Under the pieces are notes generated by a model. That model was not told the origin of the DNA, searched no databases, and worked only from the letters and a program-made list of their open reading frames with translations. A stretch of DNA of 36,531 nucleotides from Fidelibacterota bacterium (lineage in GTDB: Bacteria; Fidelibacterota; UBA2242; JAOZSR01): assembly GCA_029939575.1 (NCBI GenBank), contig JAOZSR010000028.1, forward strand, positions 1 to 36,531, in the 5' to 3' direction. A program made the position numbers and the translations under genes. This document shows, one piece after another, positions 1,520 through 20,724 of the stretch (position 1 is its first letter; every line of letters begins with the position of its first letter).

Positions 1520-4336
1520 ATGATGAATAAACAGTACAAACTATTTTGTTTTATTATAATATTAGGCCTACAAATATTAATGGCCCAGATTCCTGATGGT
1601 TATTATTCCAATGCTGAGGGATTATCCGGCAATGCGCTCAGGAATGCTCTCCATAATATTATAGACGATCATTCGGAATATTCCTATGATGCTTTACGAG
1701 ATTATATTTTAAAAAACTCTGATGAAGATCCAAATAATTCTAACAATATCATTCTGTTATATACTGGTCGTTCTCAACCGAAATCATCTTTTGGTGCAGG
1801 TTCGAATGACTGGAACCGAGAGCATGTATGGGCAAAATCCCATGGTGATTTTGGAAACAATCCTCCCTGTGGAACAGATGCACACCATTTACGTCCGACT
1901 GATTCATCAGTAAATTCAAGCCGTGGAAATAAAGATTTTGACAATGGCGGTACACCGCATAGTGAAGCAACCGGTTGTAACACAGACACTGATTCATGGG
2001 AGCCCAGAGACGAAGTAAAGGGTGACGTCGCCAGGATGATTTTGTATATGGATGTACGATATGAAGGTGATAATGGAGAACCCGATCTGGTTGCTGTTGA
2101 TTATGTTAATTCTTCACCAAATAAAGAACCCAGACATGGCAAACTTTCTACTCTTTTGGAATGGCATCTTGAAGATCCGCCTGATAATTTTGAAATTCAC
2201 AGAAATGATGTTGTATATAGCTATCAAAATAACCGGAATCCATTCATTGATCACCCTGAATACGTAGGAATGATATGGGGAGATGGTCCCCAAATGCCAT
2301 CAAACATCCAATTTTCAAACCTGACTCAAAACTCAGTAACCCTTGCCTGGAATGACAACTCAAATAACGAATCTGGTTTTAATTTGTATCAAAACTCTGA
2401 TCTGATTCAAACTTTAAATCCAAATACAACCTCGATCCAAATAGACAACCTGGAACCGAATACAAAATATTTATTTGGATTGTCAGCTTTTAATAATGAC
2501 GGTGAATCTGCAAAAATTACTATTGAAATAACAACTTTGCCCGCTCCTCCGTTAACATATACAATTATGAGTTATAATATCCAAAATTATGGTGAAGAAC
2601 CATCGGAAGATACTGATCGAAAAGATGATTTGAGAAATATCATCAATTCAGTTGATCCGGATATTTTAATTGTCGAAGAAATCTGGGGAAATTCCGGGAA
2701 TCAGGATTTTTTGGATAATATTCTCAACTACGAAGAGACTCTTTATAATTCTGCATTTATTGATCAATTTTGTTGGCAAGACATTGGACTTTACTATAAG
2801 ACTGAGCATCTGACAGTTAATTCTATTCAGACTATAGATATTGCTACAGATTATCTGCGCGATGCCCTGAAAGTAAATTTCACCGAAGACGAGCACAGCA
2901 CCAGTTTCAATGTATATAGTCTTCATCTAAAAGCCAATACTTCCGACAATATCCAGGATGACATTGATACCCGGGCAAGTCAGACTGCAGCTTTAAGAAA
3001 CTATCTGAATACACTGGATGAAGACTCCTATTTCCTGGTTGTTGGAGATTTCAACATTCTAAATGCTTCTGAATCGGGATGGCAAAATCTAACCAATTCG
3101 GAAAATGAAAATACAGGCAGAGTTTTTGATCCTATTAATCAGGTTGGAGAATGGAACAGCAATCAAAACTTTGCTCCCTATCATACTCACAGCACAAGAT
3201 ATTCTTCCAGTTATCCAAACTCCAGCGGTTTAAGAACCAGGCTGGATTTTATTCTTACATCTGAACAGGTTCTTTTGCCGGGAGGAATGGAATTTATTGA
3301 GGATTCTTATATAACCTATGGAAATGATGGTAACCACTTTGGCGATGCTGTAAATTATCAAACAAATTCTGCTGTTTCGTCAGAAATCGCAGATGCCCTT
3401 TATAATGCTTCAGACCATTTGCCGGTTTATGCAGATTTCCGTTTCACCAGAACACTGGAAAATGCAGAAAACCTTTTCTTTTCCGAATATATTGAAGGTT
3501 CAGTTTATAACAAGGCACTGGAAATATATAATGGTAGTCAACAGGATGTTTGTTTAGACGGATATCAGATTATTAGTAATTTTAATGGTAATTCCTGGAA
3601 TGAAGAAAACTATTCCTTTCCTGCCGGGCAAATTCTCGGGCAAGAAAATGTCTGGGTGGTTGCTAATTCCCAGGCTGAAACCGAAATACTAAATAATGCA
3701 GATGATATTCTGCCTAATAACCAGGCCGGGTATGTTGTTGGATTTAACGGAAATGATGTAAGAGCGCTTGTCAAAATAGATGGAATTGACACAACCTTTC
3801 TTGATTTTATTGGAAATTTTAATGGAATTGATCCGGGTGACGGCTGGTCTGTAGCCGGGATAGAAGATGCCACAAAAGACCACACCCTGATTAAAAAAAC
3901 CGGAGTTTTACGGGGAAACACGGACTGGCTGGTTTCAGCCGGAGATTCGGAAGAAAATTCAGAATGGTTGGTTTTTGAAAAAGATTATTTTAGTAACCTT
4001 GGATTTCATAATAATGACGTAGATATTATACCGGAATCCCACAATGAAATTTTGGAAGGATTTAAACTTCTTTCAAATTTCCCCAATCCCTTTAATCCGG
4101 AAACTAATATTGAGTTCTCAATCCAAAAACCTGCCAATATTAAAATTTCTGTTTTTAATATTAAAGGTCAGCATATAAAAACTCTGATCAATAAAAATTT
4201 TCAGTCTGGTTTGCATAGAATTACATGGAATGGAACAAATAGCAGTAATTGCAGAGTTGTCAGTGGTATCTATTTCTACCAAATGGCAACAGAGGATGGC
4301 TTTTCTCAAACTAAAAAAATGATATTATTGCAATAA
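1520..4336 (+). CDS. Secreted multidomain nuclease: endonuclease I + endonuclease/exonuclease/phosphatase domains with C-terminal sorting-type module
   Basis: Likely an extracellular DNase/RNase that degrades environmental nucleic acid. Domain order over 938 residues: signal peptide (about 1-22, ending LQILMA); endonuclease I domain (about 25-255) with the NREHVWAKSHG and DAHHLRP motifs expected of the EndA/NucM family; fibronectin type III (about 263-343); endonuclease/exonuclease/phosphatase domain (about 350-660) with MSYNIQNYG, IVEEIWG, VVGDFNI and SDHLPVYADF; a lamin-tail-like domain (about 665-835) beginning FFSEYIEGS and containing KALEIYN; and a C-terminal beta-sandwich (about 850-938) with NFPNPFNPET and SGIYFYQM. 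The last module is the FlgD-like/T9SS type A class, implying secretion and surface attachment. The start is chosen for the AAAAAGGA site 6 bases upstream; a second ATG follows directly. The gene stands alone, convergent with the PLP enzyme gene 18 bases downstream. Confidence 0.9.
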   Translation: MMNKQYKLFCFIIILGLQILMAQIPDGYYSNAEGLSGNALRNALHNIIDDHSEYSYDALRDYILKNSDEDPNNSNNIILLYTGRSQPKSSFGAGSNDWNREHVWAKSHGDFGNNPPCGTDAHHLRPTDSSVNSSRGNKDFDNGGTPHSEATGCNTDTDSWEPRDEVKGDVARMILYMDVRYEGDNGEPDLVAVDYVNSSPNKEPRHGKLSTLLEWHLEDPPDNFEIHRNDVVYSYQNNRNPFIDHPEYVGMIWGDGPQMPSNIQFSNLTQNSVTLAWNDNSNNESGFNLYQNSDLIQTLNPNTTSIQIDNLEPNTKYLFGLSAFNNDGESAKITIEITTLPAPPLTYTIMSYNIQNYGEEPSEDTDRKDDLRNIINSVDPDILIVEEIWGNSGNQDFLDNILNYEETLYNSAFIDQFCWQDIGLYYKTEHLTVNSIQTIDIATDYLRDALKVNFTEDEHSTSFNVYSLHLKANTSDNIQDDIDTRASQTAALRNYLNTLDEDSYFLVVGDFNILNASESGWQNLTNSENENTGRVFDPINQVGEWNSNQNFAPYHTHSTRYSSSYPNSSGLRTRLDFILTSEQVLLPGGMEFIEDSYITYGNDGNHFGDAVNYQTNSAVSSEIADALYNASDHLPVYADFRFTRTLENAENLFFSEYIEGSVYNKALEIYNGSQQDVCLDGYQIISNFNGNSWNEENYSFPAGQILGQENVWVVANSQAETEILNNADDILPNNQAGYVVGFNGNDVRALVKIDGIDTTFLDFIGNFNGIDPGDGWSVAGIEDATKDHTLIKKTGVLRGNTDWLVSAGDSEENSEWLVFEKDYFSNLGFHNNDVDIIPESHNEILEGFKLLSNFPNPFNPETNIEFSIQKPANIKISVFNIKGQHIKTLINKNFQSGLHRITWNGTNSSNCRVVSGIYFYQMATEDGFSQTKKMILLQ

Positions 4337-15704: not shown

Positions 15705-16445
15705 TCAAAATTTACCAGATTGAAAGAAATCAACGATTTCCGGAATGTTTGATTTCTTGGCTTCAGCCAGAGAGCCATGGAACAGTTTTTTTCCTTTTTC
15801 CAGAAAAATTATTTTATCTGCAATCCTGTGAATTGAGGCTAATTCATGAGTAACTACAACAATTGTCATATTTAGTTGTTCTTTTAATTTTAGTATTAAC
15901 TCATCTAATTTCACACTGGTAATCGGATCGAGTCCGGCTGATGGCTCATCACAAAAAAGAATCTGCGGATCAAGAGCGATTGATCTGGCAAGTGCAGCTC
16001 TTTTTTTCATTCCCCCTGATAATTCTGAGGGAAGCAAATTAGTCGCTTTTTCTAATTGAACAAGATGAAGTTTGACTTTGATTATTTTTTCAATTATTTG
16101 AGCCGGAAGTTTTGTATGTTGTTCCAAAGGAATGGCAATATTATCAAAAACACTAATAGAATTCAGCAAGGCCCCATTTTGAAATAACATTCCAATGTTT
16201 TTCAGCACCGGTTCCAAACTTTCCTGTGACAGACCCATGGTTTCTTTGCCGAAAATTTTAATAGAGCCCTGAATTGGTTGGTAAAGACGCAAAATATTTT
16301 TGATCAGGGTTGTTTTGCCGCAACCACTGCCACCGAGAATAATTGTTACTTCACCGGGATAAATGTCAACATCAATGTTATCTAAAACAAGTGTTTCATC
16401 ATATTTTGCAATTAAATTTTTTACTTCTATTATCGGTTTTTTCAT
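15705..16445 (-). CDS. mlaF: ABC transporter ATP-binding protein of MCE/Mla lipid transport system
   Basis: The 246-residue ATPase of an Mla-type lipid transporter at the inner membrane. Walker A GGSGCGKTT, signature LSGGMKKRAALARS and Walker B ILFCDEPSAGLDP are all intact. The SGGMKKR signature and the C-terminal part ending in EIVDFFQSGKF are typical of MlaF rather than of import ABC ATPases. It is the last of four genes and begins one base after the mlaE stop. With MlaE and the MCE protein it should drive phospholipid movement between the two membranes. Confidence 0.93.
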   Translation of the reverse strand: MKKPIIEVKNLIAKYDETLVLDNIDVDIYPGEVTIILGGSGCGKTTLIKNILRLYQPIQGSIKIFGKETMGLSQESLEPVLKNIGMLFQNGALLNSISVFDNIAIPLEQHTKLPAQIIEKIIKVKLHLVQLEKATNLLPSELSGGMKKRAALARSIALDPQILFCDEPSAGLDPITSVKLDELILKLKEQLNMTIVVVTHELASIHRIADKIIFLEKGKKLFHGSLAEAKKSNIPEIVDFFQSGKF

Positions 16446-16446
16446 A

Positions 16447-17520
16447 TTAAAGCATATAGATTAAACTAAAAATCGCATCCAGAACAATCACGGCAAAAAT
16501 TGAAGCAACTACCGAGCGGGTTGTTGCTTTGCCGACTCCTTCAGAGCCGCCCGTGACATTAAATCCATAGTAAGCACCTATTATTACTATTACCCAGGCA
16601 AAAAAGAGACTTTTACTAAGCCCGACAATAAGATCTTTAGTCGTTAAAACACTGAATAATTCAGTAAAATATGCCATTATAGTGAGATCAAGATAAAAAA
16701 TTCCAACCAGCAGGCCGCCAATAACCCCAACAACAATTGAAATAATAACAAGCAAAGGCATACATATTGTCATTGCGTTGAATTTGGGTGCTACAATATA
16801 GCGCAAGGGATTAATGGCCATAACTTTGAGTGCATCAATTTCTTCGGCAACCTGCATAGTTGCGATTTCAGAAGCTATCGCTGATCCACTTCTACCGGCT
16901 ACTATTATAGCCGTCATCATGGGCCCCATTTCTCTTACCATGGAAATTGCAATCAGATCGGCAACAAAAATATTGGCTCCAAATTGTCTTAACTGAGCTG
17001 CTGATTGAAGAGCCAGAATAAGCCCGAGGATTAAAGAAAGCAAGCTGATGATCCCTACGGCATCCGCGCCGATTAACAGACATTGCTGAGTAATAACTCC
17101 TTTTTTTTGACTTTTCCTGTTAAAAACGGCAACCACTGACCAAAATATAATATCAGATGTTAAAAAAAGGCCTTGGACTGTTTCTGTTTTAAAATTTATT
17201 AAAGCCGTGCCTATTCTCTCAAAAAAACCAGGTTCTTGCCTTGGAGAAGAGTTAGGGATTTTTAGAGAAGAAAAAGTATTGATCGCCTTTAGGACGCTCT
17301 CATTGGCCCTTGTAATTTCAGGAGACAAAGTTTTGGAACTTTGCATTAATTCATCTAAAAAAGCAACTCCGGCACTGTCTATTTTGTTAACATTATCCAG
17401 ATCAATTTCCCGAATTTCCGATTTGGGCAACTTTTTAAGTTCTTTAAATAGCTGTGGTACACTGAACCTGGTAAGTTCGCCACTCAAAATTAATGTTTTG
17501 TCTTTTAAATTCATGGACAT
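16447..17520 (-). CDS. mlaE: MlaE-type permease with N-terminal STAS (MlaB-like) domain
   Basis: A 357-residue inner-membrane permease. The first about 85 residues form a STAS domain (LILSGELTRFSVPQL, then IREIDLDNVNKIDSAGVAFL), equivalent to separate MlaB in E. coli. After a linker comes the MlaE domain, with DAVGIISLLSLILGLILALQ, ISMVREMGPMMTAIIVAGRSG and ALKVMAINPLRYIVAPK, and about five membrane helices. The MlaE family folds as a dimer that holds the MCE ring and MlaF. It starts 16 bases after the lipoprotein gene stop. A second ATG two codons downstream is an equally possible start; neither has a strong Shine-Dalgarno. Confidence 0.92.
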   Translation of the reverse strand: MSMNLKDKTLILSGELTRFSVPQLFKELKKLPKSEIREIDLDNVNKIDSAGVAFLDELMQSSKTLSPEITRANESVLKAINTFSSLKIPNSSPRQEPGFFERIGTALINFKTETVQGLFLTSDIIFWSVVAVFNRKSQKKGVITQQCLLIGADAVGIISLLSLILGLILALQSAAQLRQFGANIFVADLIAISMVREMGPMMTAIIVAGRSGSAIASEIATMQVAEEIDALKVMAINPLRYIVAPKFNAMTICMPLLVIISIVVGVIGGLLVGIFYLDLTIMAYFTELFSVLTTKDLIVGLSKSLFFAWVIVIIGAYYGFNVTGGSEGVGKATTRSVVASIFAVIVLDAIFSLIYML

Positions 17521-17536
17521 TTTAAAATACCAAAAA

Positions 17537-19651
17537 TTACTTGAAAAAATAAGTTAAGCGTAAAAACAAACTATGCTTATCCAAAATATATTCTTTCTGA
17601 TTTTCATTCTGAATATTACGTAATTTTATTTTATAATCAATTGAAATGTATTTGAAAAGTCTGAGATTGAAAACATTTTCCCAATCTACCGATGGACTTT
17701 TTGCTTTATCAAAAGGAAAAAGCACATCCGCATTCGTACTGTATGTTAAATTAAGCGGCAATTGAAAATTACCAATTATTGAGAGCTCTGTTCCTTGCTC
17801 TGAAACAGATTCTATCTCCCTATATATCTTCGTATTTGTGGAATCAATTGTATCAAAAAAATATACTCCATTGTTATACTCCTGTCGAAGACCAAATCCA
17901 GTACGTAGGTTAAGGGTAGAACGTTGGGAATTTAATACCCGATAATTTATCCCGATACCTTCTTTCAAAATTAAGGGAAAGAGACTATTTTGCAGGGTAA
18001 TTTCATTGACATTATTTCCGCTTTCCACCAGTTTTTTATTAAAATCATATTTCTTAAAATCAAACTCTGATTCTTCCCGGACAAATCCCGGAAACAGGTG
18101 TGAATTTGCATCAAAACGGGTATATAACCCGAGTTTTTTTATCAGGAATACAATAAAGGTATTTTTCAAATCAATATCGTCAGCTGAGATCGCAAAATCA
18201 GTATTGGTATGTTTGGTGATGCCGAATTCTGACAGGCTTTTCATAGTGAAATGAAAGGGGAAATTTTCATAAATAATTCTATTGTCATATTGGGTATTCA
18301 CAGTTATAGAAGTTTCCGGATTATTCCTGTCTTTTTCATTATCGCGATTCATATTAAAGTTTCCATGAAGCGCACTAAAGCCCTTCCACTTGTCCTTAGA
18401 TGCAAAATCCTCAACATCTTCCAGAATACCGGCACCAACCAGGTTCGTGGGATTTCCTTCATCGTCGATATTTACTACTATAGTGAGTTTTTGAACTTTC
18501 CCTTTTTTTAATTCAACGGTAGTAAAATCCCGATAAGTATTAAAGGGCTCGCTGTTAATAGTTATTTTGTATAAACCCGGATCTAATACCCATATTTTTT
18601 GCTGCTCACCAAGTTCTTTTTCTACTGTCAGTTCTGTACCAAAACTATTACCATTATCTGAATCAAAAATTTCATATCGCACCTGGGCAAAATTTCGTCT
18701 TTCATCAATTATATCAACTATCAGACATGACCAATCCGGCTCTATAATTGTTTTATACATCGGACGAATTTTAACATTTTTTTTAGTTAATAACTGATTT
18801 TCACTACCAGAGCCAAAAGAAATATTATATGAGCCGGCCAAAAGTGGGATGGCCTTCCCCATAACTCCTTCGGCATGCTCACCTTTTTCATTAAAAATTT
18901 TGTAATGTGGCTCATAATCTGTTCTGCTTAACGCAGGCAATAGAAGCAGACCACGACCTTTCATTTCCGGAACGTCAAAATCAAAAAGACTGGGGGGGCC
19001 ATTTGTTTCCACACTGACAGTATCGGCAATCTCAGTTTTGTTGGAAAAAAACTGATTTACTTTCACAATAAATCTATCTGTTTCTTCAAGAATAATTTCA
19101 TTTATTTGTTGCACAAAAGTTTCGATCTGGTCATCTAAAACAACTTCCTCTCTATTAATTGAATGGGATGTGATAATCATATTATCAGAATTACGCTTTA
19201 ATAAAAAATCCATATTTAAATGGGCTTCTTTCAGAAATTCCGAGTCGTATAATTCAATATTATTAATTTTAGTGATTAATTCCAGGTCTGGTCTTTTATC
19301 CAGGAGTTCTGACTGGGTTTGAGTAAATATATTATAACGGATGATCCTTTTTTTAATTAATTGAGAAATAATATCATTTAAGCGATCTCCCCAAAGATCA
19401 TTTTCCAAATAACTGATTTTTGGGCCAAAATGTCTGAGTACAATCTGCCGTTTGTCATAGGTTGTCGGAATCTGTGTATCTCTTACAAATAGTGAATAAT
19501 TATAAGGTGTTTCTCTGATTAAATTTTTATTTTCAGTATGGTTAAAATATTCAAGAATGTAATAATTGCGTATGCTTGGTGCTCTGGAAGCACACCCTGT
19601 CATCAGAAAAACAAATAAAAGGAATCCGGCATATAATATGTTTCTTTTCAT
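17537..19651 (-). CDS. Fusion lipoprotein: ABC-transport auxiliary (PqiC-like) domain + predicted C-terminal outer-membrane barrel
   Basis: A 704-residue protein in the MCE operon. Residues 1-20 are a lipoprotein signal (FLMTGC, Cys20 lipidated). Residues about 28-205 resemble the ABC-transport auxiliary lipoprotein family (PqiC type), with NYYILEYF and PTTYDKRQIVLRHFGPKISY. About 225-405 holds two beta-rich PEGA-like units, including LDPGLYKITI. The last about 270 residues read as alternating beta-strands and end in SLFLRLTYFFK, a C-terminal aromatic typical of outer-membrane barrels. The closest pattern I can name is DUF481-like. PqiC-type proteins normally stop near 190 residues, so the extra barrel is unusual. 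Position between the MCE protein (5 bases before) and mlaE (16 bases after) implies it is the outer-membrane end of this transporter. Family calls are by eye. Confidence 0.68.
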   Translation of the reverse strand: MKRNILYAGFLLFVFLMTGCASRAPSIRNYYILEYFNHTENKNLIRETPYNYSLFVRDTQIPTTYDKRQIVLRHFGPKISYLENDLWGDRLNDIISQLIKKRIIRYNIFTQTQSELLDKRPDLELITKINNIELYDSEFLKEAHLNMDFLLKRNSDNMIITSHSINREEVVLDDQIETFVQQINEIILEETDRFIVKVNQFFSNKTEIADTVSVETNGPPSLFDFDVPEMKGRGLLLLPALSRTDYEPHYKIFNEKGEHAEGVMGKAIPLLAGSYNISFGSGSENQLLTKKNVKIRPMYKTIIEPDWSCLIVDIIDERRNFAQVRYEIFDSDNGNSFGTELTVEKELGEQQKIWVLDPGLYKITINSEPFNTYRDFTTVELKKGKVQKLTIVVNIDDEGNPTNLVGAGILEDVEDFASKDKWKGFSALHGNFNMNRDNEKDRNNPETSITVNTQYDNRIIYENFPFHFTMKSLSEFGITKHTNTDFAISADDIDLKNTFIVFLIKKLGLYTRFDANSHLFPGFVREESEFDFKKYDFNKKLVESGNNVNEITLQNSLFPLILKEGIGINYRVLNSQRSTLNLRTGFGLRQEYNNGVYFFDTIDSTNTKIYREIESVSEQGTELSIIGNFQLPLNLTYSTNADVLFPFDKAKSPSVDWENVFNLRLFKYISIDYKIKLRNIQNENQKEYILDKHSLFLRLTYFFK

Positions 19652-19656
19652 AATTT

Positions 19657-20724
19657 TTAGTCCCTTGCCTTAGATCTGATCAAATAAGAAGGATCGTCAC
19701 TTATTTGACGTGAAAATTCATTTAAGTACTCAATAGTTTCTTTTAATATCTTGATAGATTCCAACACATCACGCCTGCCTTGCAAAACGGTTGCATCAAC
19801 ATGCTTAAATGAGTTGTCGGCTATTTCAACCAGCCTTTGAATGTCGGCTATTAAATTACCAATATCCTTCTCAAGAAATTCTTTTAGTTCCAATGCACCG
19901 AGTGTGTCTGAAAATTGAGAAAAATTTGTTAATGTGTTTTTAATTTCTTTTGATTGGACTATCATATCAATATTTGTTATAGTTGTTTGCACCATATCAA
20001 CAGATTTATCAAGTTTCCTTGATACAGACTCCAGGTTTTTAAATGTAGCGGCAATTTCGGATCGGTTTTCCACAAGTATTAAATTAGCATTGGATAACAA
20101 TTCTTCCACATCTGATTTTGAGGTAATTAACAATGTATCAATATTGGTCAGAATTGAATTGATATTTTCACGATTATCAACCAGAATGAAATTAAGATTG
20201 GCCAGAATATCTGATAGTTGAGCCCTGTGTTGTTGATCTGTAATAGCAGAAATATTATTTAAAACACTTTCGATTTTTTCGGTTATAATTTCTGCTTTTC
20301 CGGTAATATCATCTAACATTGAAGAACCGGGTGGTATTATTGAAGGTGGTTCCATTAAATCGGCCTGATTGGTTCCTCCTGTTAGTTCAATTTGTTTTAA
20401 ACCCGTAATACCAACAGCCACCAGAGTAGCAGTAACATCCTGTTTAATAGGTGTTCCATCCTTTATACTTAATTTTACAACAACCTTGCTAATATCCTCC
20501 GGATCAAAAGTAATGTCATCAACCCGTCCAATATTTATACCATAATATTTTACAGAGCTTCCAATTTGCAAACCATTGACCGAAGTATTTTCATATTTAA
20601 CGTAGTATGTGTCCCGTTTTTCCAGAAATTGCTTTCCGGCAACTATTACAAAAAATACAATTAGTAATAAAGTGGCAAGGGTTAAAAAAATTCCCAATCT
20701 TATCTTTTGTGCTTTACTAACCAT
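19657..20724 (-). CDS. mlaD: MCE-domain lipid-binding protein (MlaD family)
   Basis: A 355-residue periplasmic substrate-binding component anchored by one N-terminal helix (about 10-30, LGIFLTLATLLLIVFFVIVA). The MCE domain follows (about 35-115): YYVKYENTSVNGLQIGSSVKYYGINIGRV and ATLVAVGITGLKQIELTGG; MCE domains form hexameric rings that pass lipids. The rest is a long helical, probably coiled-coil region with repeated spacing of NLNFILVDNREN and NANLILVENRSE, ending in DDPSYLIRSK, as in many MCE proteins. This tail could form a channel-like tube towards the outer membrane. First gene of the operon; the 225 bases upstream contain a palindrome. Confidence 0.93.
   Translation of the reverse strand: MVSKAQKIRLGIFLTLATLLLIVFFVIVAGKQFLEKRDTYYVKYENTSVNGLQIGSSVKYYGINIGRVDDITFDPEDISKVVVKLSIKDGTPIKQDVTATLVAVGITGLKQIELTGGTNQADLMEPPSIIPPGSSMLDDITGKAEIITEKIESVLNNISAITDQQHRAQLSDILANLNFILVDNRENINSILTNIDTLLITSKSDVEELLSNANLILVENRSEIAATFKNLESVSRKLDKSVDMVQTTITNIDMIVQSKEIKNTLTNFSQFSDTLGALELKEFLEKDIGNLIADIQRLVEIADNSFKHVDATVLQGRRDVLESIKILKETIEYLNEFSRQISDDPSYLIRSKARD

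Follow-up and report, generated by a model that had tools for sequence, protein, structure and literature searches.

How does a lipid-transport bridge built on an MCE protein end at the outer membrane (OM), and is a β-barrel part of that end? This question is raised by a 704-residue protein encoded in a 36,531-nucleotide stretch of bacterial DNA (the window, which here always means that whole stretch). The first-pass annotation read the protein as an OM barrel fused to the small lipoprotein that accompanies some MCE systems. But is such a chain real, and what could it do? The reading frame lies at the positions given in the annotation, but on the minus strand (Table 1), and both claimed ends can be read directly: a lipoprotein signal whose lipobox, LMTGC, ends at Cys20, and a terminal Phe-Phe-Lys (the chain reads ...TYFFK). 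The gene also sits between those for an MCE protein and a permease, as claimed, in a tight single-strand operon ordered MCE, fusion, STAS-MlaE and MlaF, the fusion gene lying 5 bp from the MCE gene and 16 bp from the permease gene.

Table 1. The operon of the window and the parts of its fused protein
Feature	Position in window	Strand	Basis
MCE protein of 355 aa; hydrophobic (TM) segment at the N-terminus, a single MCE domain at 39-117 and a long helical-looking region	19657..20724	minus	PF02470 6e-15, single stretch
Focal gene: 704-aa lipoprotein / β-domain / OM barrel fusion	17537..19651	minus	Sequence, Pfam, models, homologs
Signal peptide and lipobox, residues 1-20 (Cys20 lipidation putative)	19592..19651	minus	Sequence; Cys invariant in 98 aligned N-domains
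PqiC/ABC_trans_aux-type domain, residues 28-205	19037..19570	minus	PF03886 match and fold
β-rich middle, residues 232-400 (PEGA-like weakly)	18452..18958	minus	DSSP of model, conservation
Predicted 14-strand OM β-barrel, residues 418-704	17540..18400	minus	Model, Tsx alignment, amphipathic strands, DUF481
MlaE permease with N-terminal STAS domain	16447..17520	minus	PF02405 1.2e-75, STAS_2 1.4e-5
MlaF-type ABC ATPase	15705..16445	minus	PF00005 4.4e-31, synteny

Is the N-terminal part a PqiC-type domain? The Pfam family PF03886 (ABC_trans_aux) covers residues 53–187 with E=1.7e-8 and a score of 34.7 bits (cut-off 26), and at E<=0.1 it is found in 26 of the 27 homologs compared. The model of residues 28–202 superposes on Escherichia coli PqiC (8q2c_A) with a Z of 14.8 and an rmsd of 2.8 over 147 residues, and comparable scores are obtained with 6osx (Z 15.0) and 2iqi (Z 14.6), so the claimed PqiC-like domain holds. 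A sequence-only search of solved structures returned 8q2c at E 0.3 together with two chance-level matches and nothing else; the case for a PqiC fold thus comes from fold comparison. The putatively lipidated cysteine is kept in all 98 aligned N-domains. The protein as a whole, at 704 aa, is far larger than stand-alone PF03886 lipoproteins, which typically have ~190–220 aa. Does the domain also form a ring, as PqiC does? In an alignment of the N-domains, the residues lining the pore of E. coli PqiC are partly conserved, W47, D55 and D84 being among several that are not. We considered this conservation as evidence for a PqiC-type ring and set it aside, as the result is mixed; with several pore-lining residues different, the ring is a putative one.

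The C-terminal half was claimed to be a barrel from residue 430 onwards, and structure prediction agrees, moving the boundary to residue 418. Folded alone, residues 405–704 give a model (m8caf8bbb72a7; pLDDT 85.9, pTM 0.77) with 14 long strands, and its Foldseek matches are OM barrels, FadL/TodX-type ones included; its structural matches are OmpG/Tsx-like. Tsx (1tlw) aligns from the first strand to the last (model residues 12–297; Z 15.2, rmsd 3.8, 209 residues), and from the strand count and the alignments we infer that the predicted barrel closes. The odd–even hydrophobicity difference along the barrel strands is 2.57, compared with 1.10 (sd 0.22) after shuffling, and exceeds all 5000 within-strand shuffles; strands of the middle region alternate too (1.88), which makes the alternation of the barrel strands supportive only. 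Pfam places DUF481 at residues 565–683 of the focal protein, just above its cut-off, and DUF3078 below cut-off; at E<=0.1 the two families match 25 and 23 of the 27 homologs, respectively. Proteins of these families thus share sequence similarity with the barrel half of the fusion, and a DUF3078 relative in the window's phylum (locus L011) is a stand-alone protein of 279 aa, unlike the fused barrel. The last residue is F or Y in 56 of 106 barrel proteins, like in canonical OM proteins. Searching the barrel half against plasmid records gave zero matches. And what lies between the two domains? The annotation had seen PEGA-like units in the middle. The region is indeed rich in β-strands, but its identity as PEGA (PF08308) is weakly supported, with matches in three of the 27 homologs and a best E of 0.035. 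Residues 304–400 form the most conserved segment of the whole protein (2.49 bits), which argues that the middle is more than a spacer. The whole-chain AlphaFold2 model, built with 27 sequences, has a mean pLDDT of 74.7 and a pTM of 0.44, so that the domains are good while their relative arrangement is uncertain.

The operon contains the set of canonical E. coli-type Mla (MlaE, MlaF and a single-MCE protein) and also that of the Mpc type, in which MlaE/F, a single-MCE needle and a PqiC-type lipoprotein share one operon, the needle and its helical character being read from the sequence. It is not of the Pqi type, which has PqiA and the multi-MCE PqiB: the partners are MlaE and MlaF, and there is one MCE domain. 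Nor does the MCE protein resemble Veillonella-type MlaD, as its charged, helical-looking tail has no match to a barrel family. The C-terminal tip of the MCE protein, its last ~45 residues (window 19660–19794), is conserved above the mid-needle (2.5–3.1 versus 1.6–2.1 bits), as expected for a contact, and the middle varies in length, giving proteins of about 280–520 aa. Is the tip carrying a docking signal? It has the motif P-S-x-L-[LI]-R, and proteobacterial MCE proteins encoded beside PqiC genes end similarly. We discarded the motif as a mark of PqiC docking: an NPxxxL-like ending (NPKKYL) is also found in MCE proteins of Marinimicrobia genomes with no PF03886 match, so it is not specific. 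The window's genome (G000) has a single MCE match. The fusion gene is preceded by a tandem pair of MCE genes, for proteins of 243 and 354 aa, at two other loci (L038:5090-6963 and L102:4304-6177), and a hetero-oligomeric needle is possible there.

Who else could handle lipids in these envelopes? Profile searches for MlaC (PF05494) and MlaA (PF04333), positive in the E. coli control, found each in none of 18 genomes carrying the system. LpxC is present in 17 of the 18, from which it seems that the cells probably make lipid A, and TamB is present in eight of 15 genomes, that of the window included. Two observations concern secretion. A protein of ~1,980 aa encoded immediately upstream of the MCE gene at L030:1-5979 matches SprA_N, from the family of giant translocons of type IX secretion, and a protein of this size takes the same place in L028, L029, L040, L043, L044, L049–L051 and L053 (all Cloacimonadota; the family was tested on the L030 copy). 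Elsewhere in the window (1520–4333, plus strand) a gene encodes a protein that joins Endonuclease I, exo/endo-phosphatase, fn3 and lamin-tail domains and carries a sorting tail of type IX, giving two predicted nuclease modules in one chain that is probably secreted.

How widespread is the fusion? The genome survey that the annotation had proposed finds it across two phyla, both of them little studied. In Cloacimonadota, 111 of 124 genomes matched and 110 are credible, as one (G278) is a weak barrel-only match and was set aside. In the window's own phylum (Marinimicrobia, by the names of relatives), 16 of 245 genomes match the fusion profile, and full-length homologs are 45–55% identical. A single-sequence scan of GTDB genome contigs gave no matches; a motif-based profile scan of GTDB genomes, which depends on two short motifs and may miss more distant phyla, found 27 loci, all Cloacimonadota or Marinimicrobia in name or by kinship (two are named Armatimonadota and both stand among Cloacimonadota genomes in the phylum listing). 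Every PF03886 match in the window's phylum (15, one of them a contig-end fragment) belongs to a fusion frame, and the same is true of 15 out of 15 matches in 15 Cloacimonadota genomes. Where contigs allow (about 110 loci read), the order MCE, PqiC-type/middle/barrel, MlaE, MlaF is near-constant. In one exception (L117, 2287–2895; a split form) the order is FtsK, LolA, PqiC-like, barrel, MlaE and MlaF, with LolA in the MCE position; in the other (L126, 2584–8000) barrel, MlaE and MlaF follow a 4-alpha-glucanotransferase gene, and the MCE and PqiC parts are absent from the locus. The tree set holds 84 fused full-length members from the two phyla, all lacking internal stops. The fused lipoprotein–barrel architecture is thus confirmed as real and not a one-off.

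Other MCE loci have different arrangements. In L089, L090 and L091, from other Marinimicrobia, MlaE, MlaF and MCE genes are followed by one for a PorV/FadL-like OM protein, possibly another OM partner, and the genome has no PF03886 match. The MCE genes in L088, L092, L093, L096 and L099 have no MlaE or MlaF match nearby, an orphan context; where tested, they adjoin a sugar nucleotidyltransferase gene, and in L088 also one for HPr kinase.

Nature also offers the two halves apart. In 14 loci of one Cloacimonadota clade they are adjacent separate genes, for a lipoprotein of ~200–217 aa and for a middle-plus-barrel protein of ~515–540 aa, and this adjacency suggests that the halves are functionally tied. 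Most of the 16 split barrel frames examined begin with a signal peptide and one with a lipobox-like sequence, so the split barrel is predicted to be exported by Sec. In an unrooted FastTree tree the split forms occupy one part, with the fused L128 inside it, and the fused form is on every other branch. The simplest reading is an ancient fusion followed by one or two fissions, or by fission and re-fusion. The members from Marinimicrobia are placed next to a single Cloacimonadota branch; this position and the patchy occurrence suggest a transfer between phyla, with low branch support (18) in a tree that is unrooted.

What, then, is the fusion doing? Taking these computational results together (the domains of the protein, its PqiC fold and predicted barrel, the operon, the conservation, the naturally split form, and MlaA and MlaC undetected), we consider it likely that the protein is the OM terminus of an MCE lipid-transport bridge independent of MlaA and MlaC, with the PqiC-like domain docking the needle and the barrel embedded in the membrane. 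The MlaE(STAS)–MlaF ABC transporter would sit beneath the MCE ring, and the long helical needle of the MCE protein would span the periplasm. Its tip would be taken up by the PqiC-like domain, lipid-anchored at the OM. The operon has the same parts as Brucella Mpc, and this domain is therefore the one most likely to receive the needle, probably as a ring, like E. coli PqiC. The conserved β-rich middle would join it to the 14-strand barrel which, once inserted by BAM, would act as a second, integral anchor of the receiver. The barrel may also aid entry of lipids into the membrane or their exit from it, depending on the direction of transport, perhaps with passage through the barrel itself. Since each PqiC-like subunit brings one 14-strand barrel, a ring of subunits at the needle tip would carry several barrels, set like a crown in the OM, with lipids entering or leaving the needle at or between them. 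We put this arrangement forward tentatively, as a doubtful but possible one; if true, the crown would be an OM lipid port unlike LptD, MlaA–porin or FadL.

Could the barrel be a gate rather than an anchor? The PqiC-like domain might sit under its own barrel or plug it, as in LptDE or PelBC, in a monomer or small oligomer through which lipids pass, instead of the barrels surrounding a ring. PelC and PelBC are among the structural matches, LptE and PelC, of the same fold class as the PqiC-like domain, are listed as PqiC structural homologs in the PqiC paper (PMC10897342), and the strong conservation of the middle would also fit. However, a 14-strand barrel with OmpG/Tsx-like matches is far smaller than LptD, the split clade makes the two parts as separate chains, and the full-length model, with its low pTM, shows no confident plug, so a translocon of this kind looks unlikely. 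Is the barrel then a FadL-like entry channel for nutrients or hydrophobic compounds, and not for membrane lipid maintenance? FadL/TodX-type barrels do appear among the Foldseek matches, and some type I MCE operons serve γ-HCH uptake or toluene resistance (PMC5561183), but near-universal presence in Cloacimonadota is a better fit to housekeeping, no catabolic genes were noticed in the neighbourhoods scanned and the sequence relatives of the barrel are DUF481/DUF3078 proteins, not FadL; we give an importer little credence. That the fusion is an artefact (a chimeric assembly, a frameshift readthrough or two neighbouring genes taken as one, as the split clade might hint) has a negligible probability, chance and misassembly being ruled out by over 80 intact full-length homologs, independent of one another, in two phyla, the nearer ones 45–55% identical to the window protein.

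How does a bridge terminus of this type compare with known systems? No description of a DUF330/PqiC domain fused to a barrel was found in the open-access papers searched, which are only part of the literature, and we therefore take the fusion as a previously undescribed variant of the MCE bridge. It supplies an OM end for the Mla-type systems of phyla where MlaA and MlaC are undetected, and suggests how a lipid-transport tube is fixed in the OM of cells that have no usual partner proteins. It is kept across about 90% of Cloacimonadota, the natural split form offers a comparison, and a single polypeptide is well suited to expression and structure solution. The phyla carrying it are ones we take to belong to the FCB group. 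The novelty claimed against known Mla, Pqi and Mce systems is nevertheless narrower than the annotation had it: barrels on MCE proteins are known from Veillonella, occur in about 10% of MlaD proteins and are absent from the FCB group according to that study (PMC10665443), and DUF330 domains, reported chiefly in Proteobacteria, are sometimes fused to MCE (PMC5561183).

A close relative in composition is Mpc of Brucella abortus, where the PqiC-like lipoprotein MpcA co-purifies with MpcEFD, an MlaEF-type transporter with a needle MCE protein (PMC12436622). Both systems have an ABC permease, an ATPase, a single-MCE needle and a PqiC-type lipoprotein and no MlaC, and this set recurs in Pseudomonas, Azospirillum, Sinorhizobium, Sphingobium and Ruegeria plasmid operons. 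The Mpc-type lipoprotein is small and separate (197–220 aa in the plasmid examples), has no barrel described and comes last in the operon, whereas the fusion carries the middle and the barrel and is placed between MCE and permease. With E. coli PqiABC, whose PqiC octamer tethers PqiAB to a membrane (PMC10897342; 8q2c), the fusion shares the fold, the lipobox, a gene adjoining that of the MCE protein and the proposed needle-tethering role; its operon differs in that PqiA is missing, the MCE protein has a single MCE domain where E. coli has three, MlaE/MlaF are driven by ATP, several pore-lining residues are different and the barrel is added. The trans-envelope MlaD of Veillonella parvula (PMC10665443) likewise belongs to an MlaEFD system with no MlaA or MlaC and ends the bridge in an OM barrel, but there a 10-strand barrel is carried by the MCE protein, and here a 14-strand barrel by a PqiC-type lipoprotein. 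The Veillonella solution, a barrel on MlaD, and the E. coli Pqi solution, a lipoprotein ring, would thus be united in one chain.
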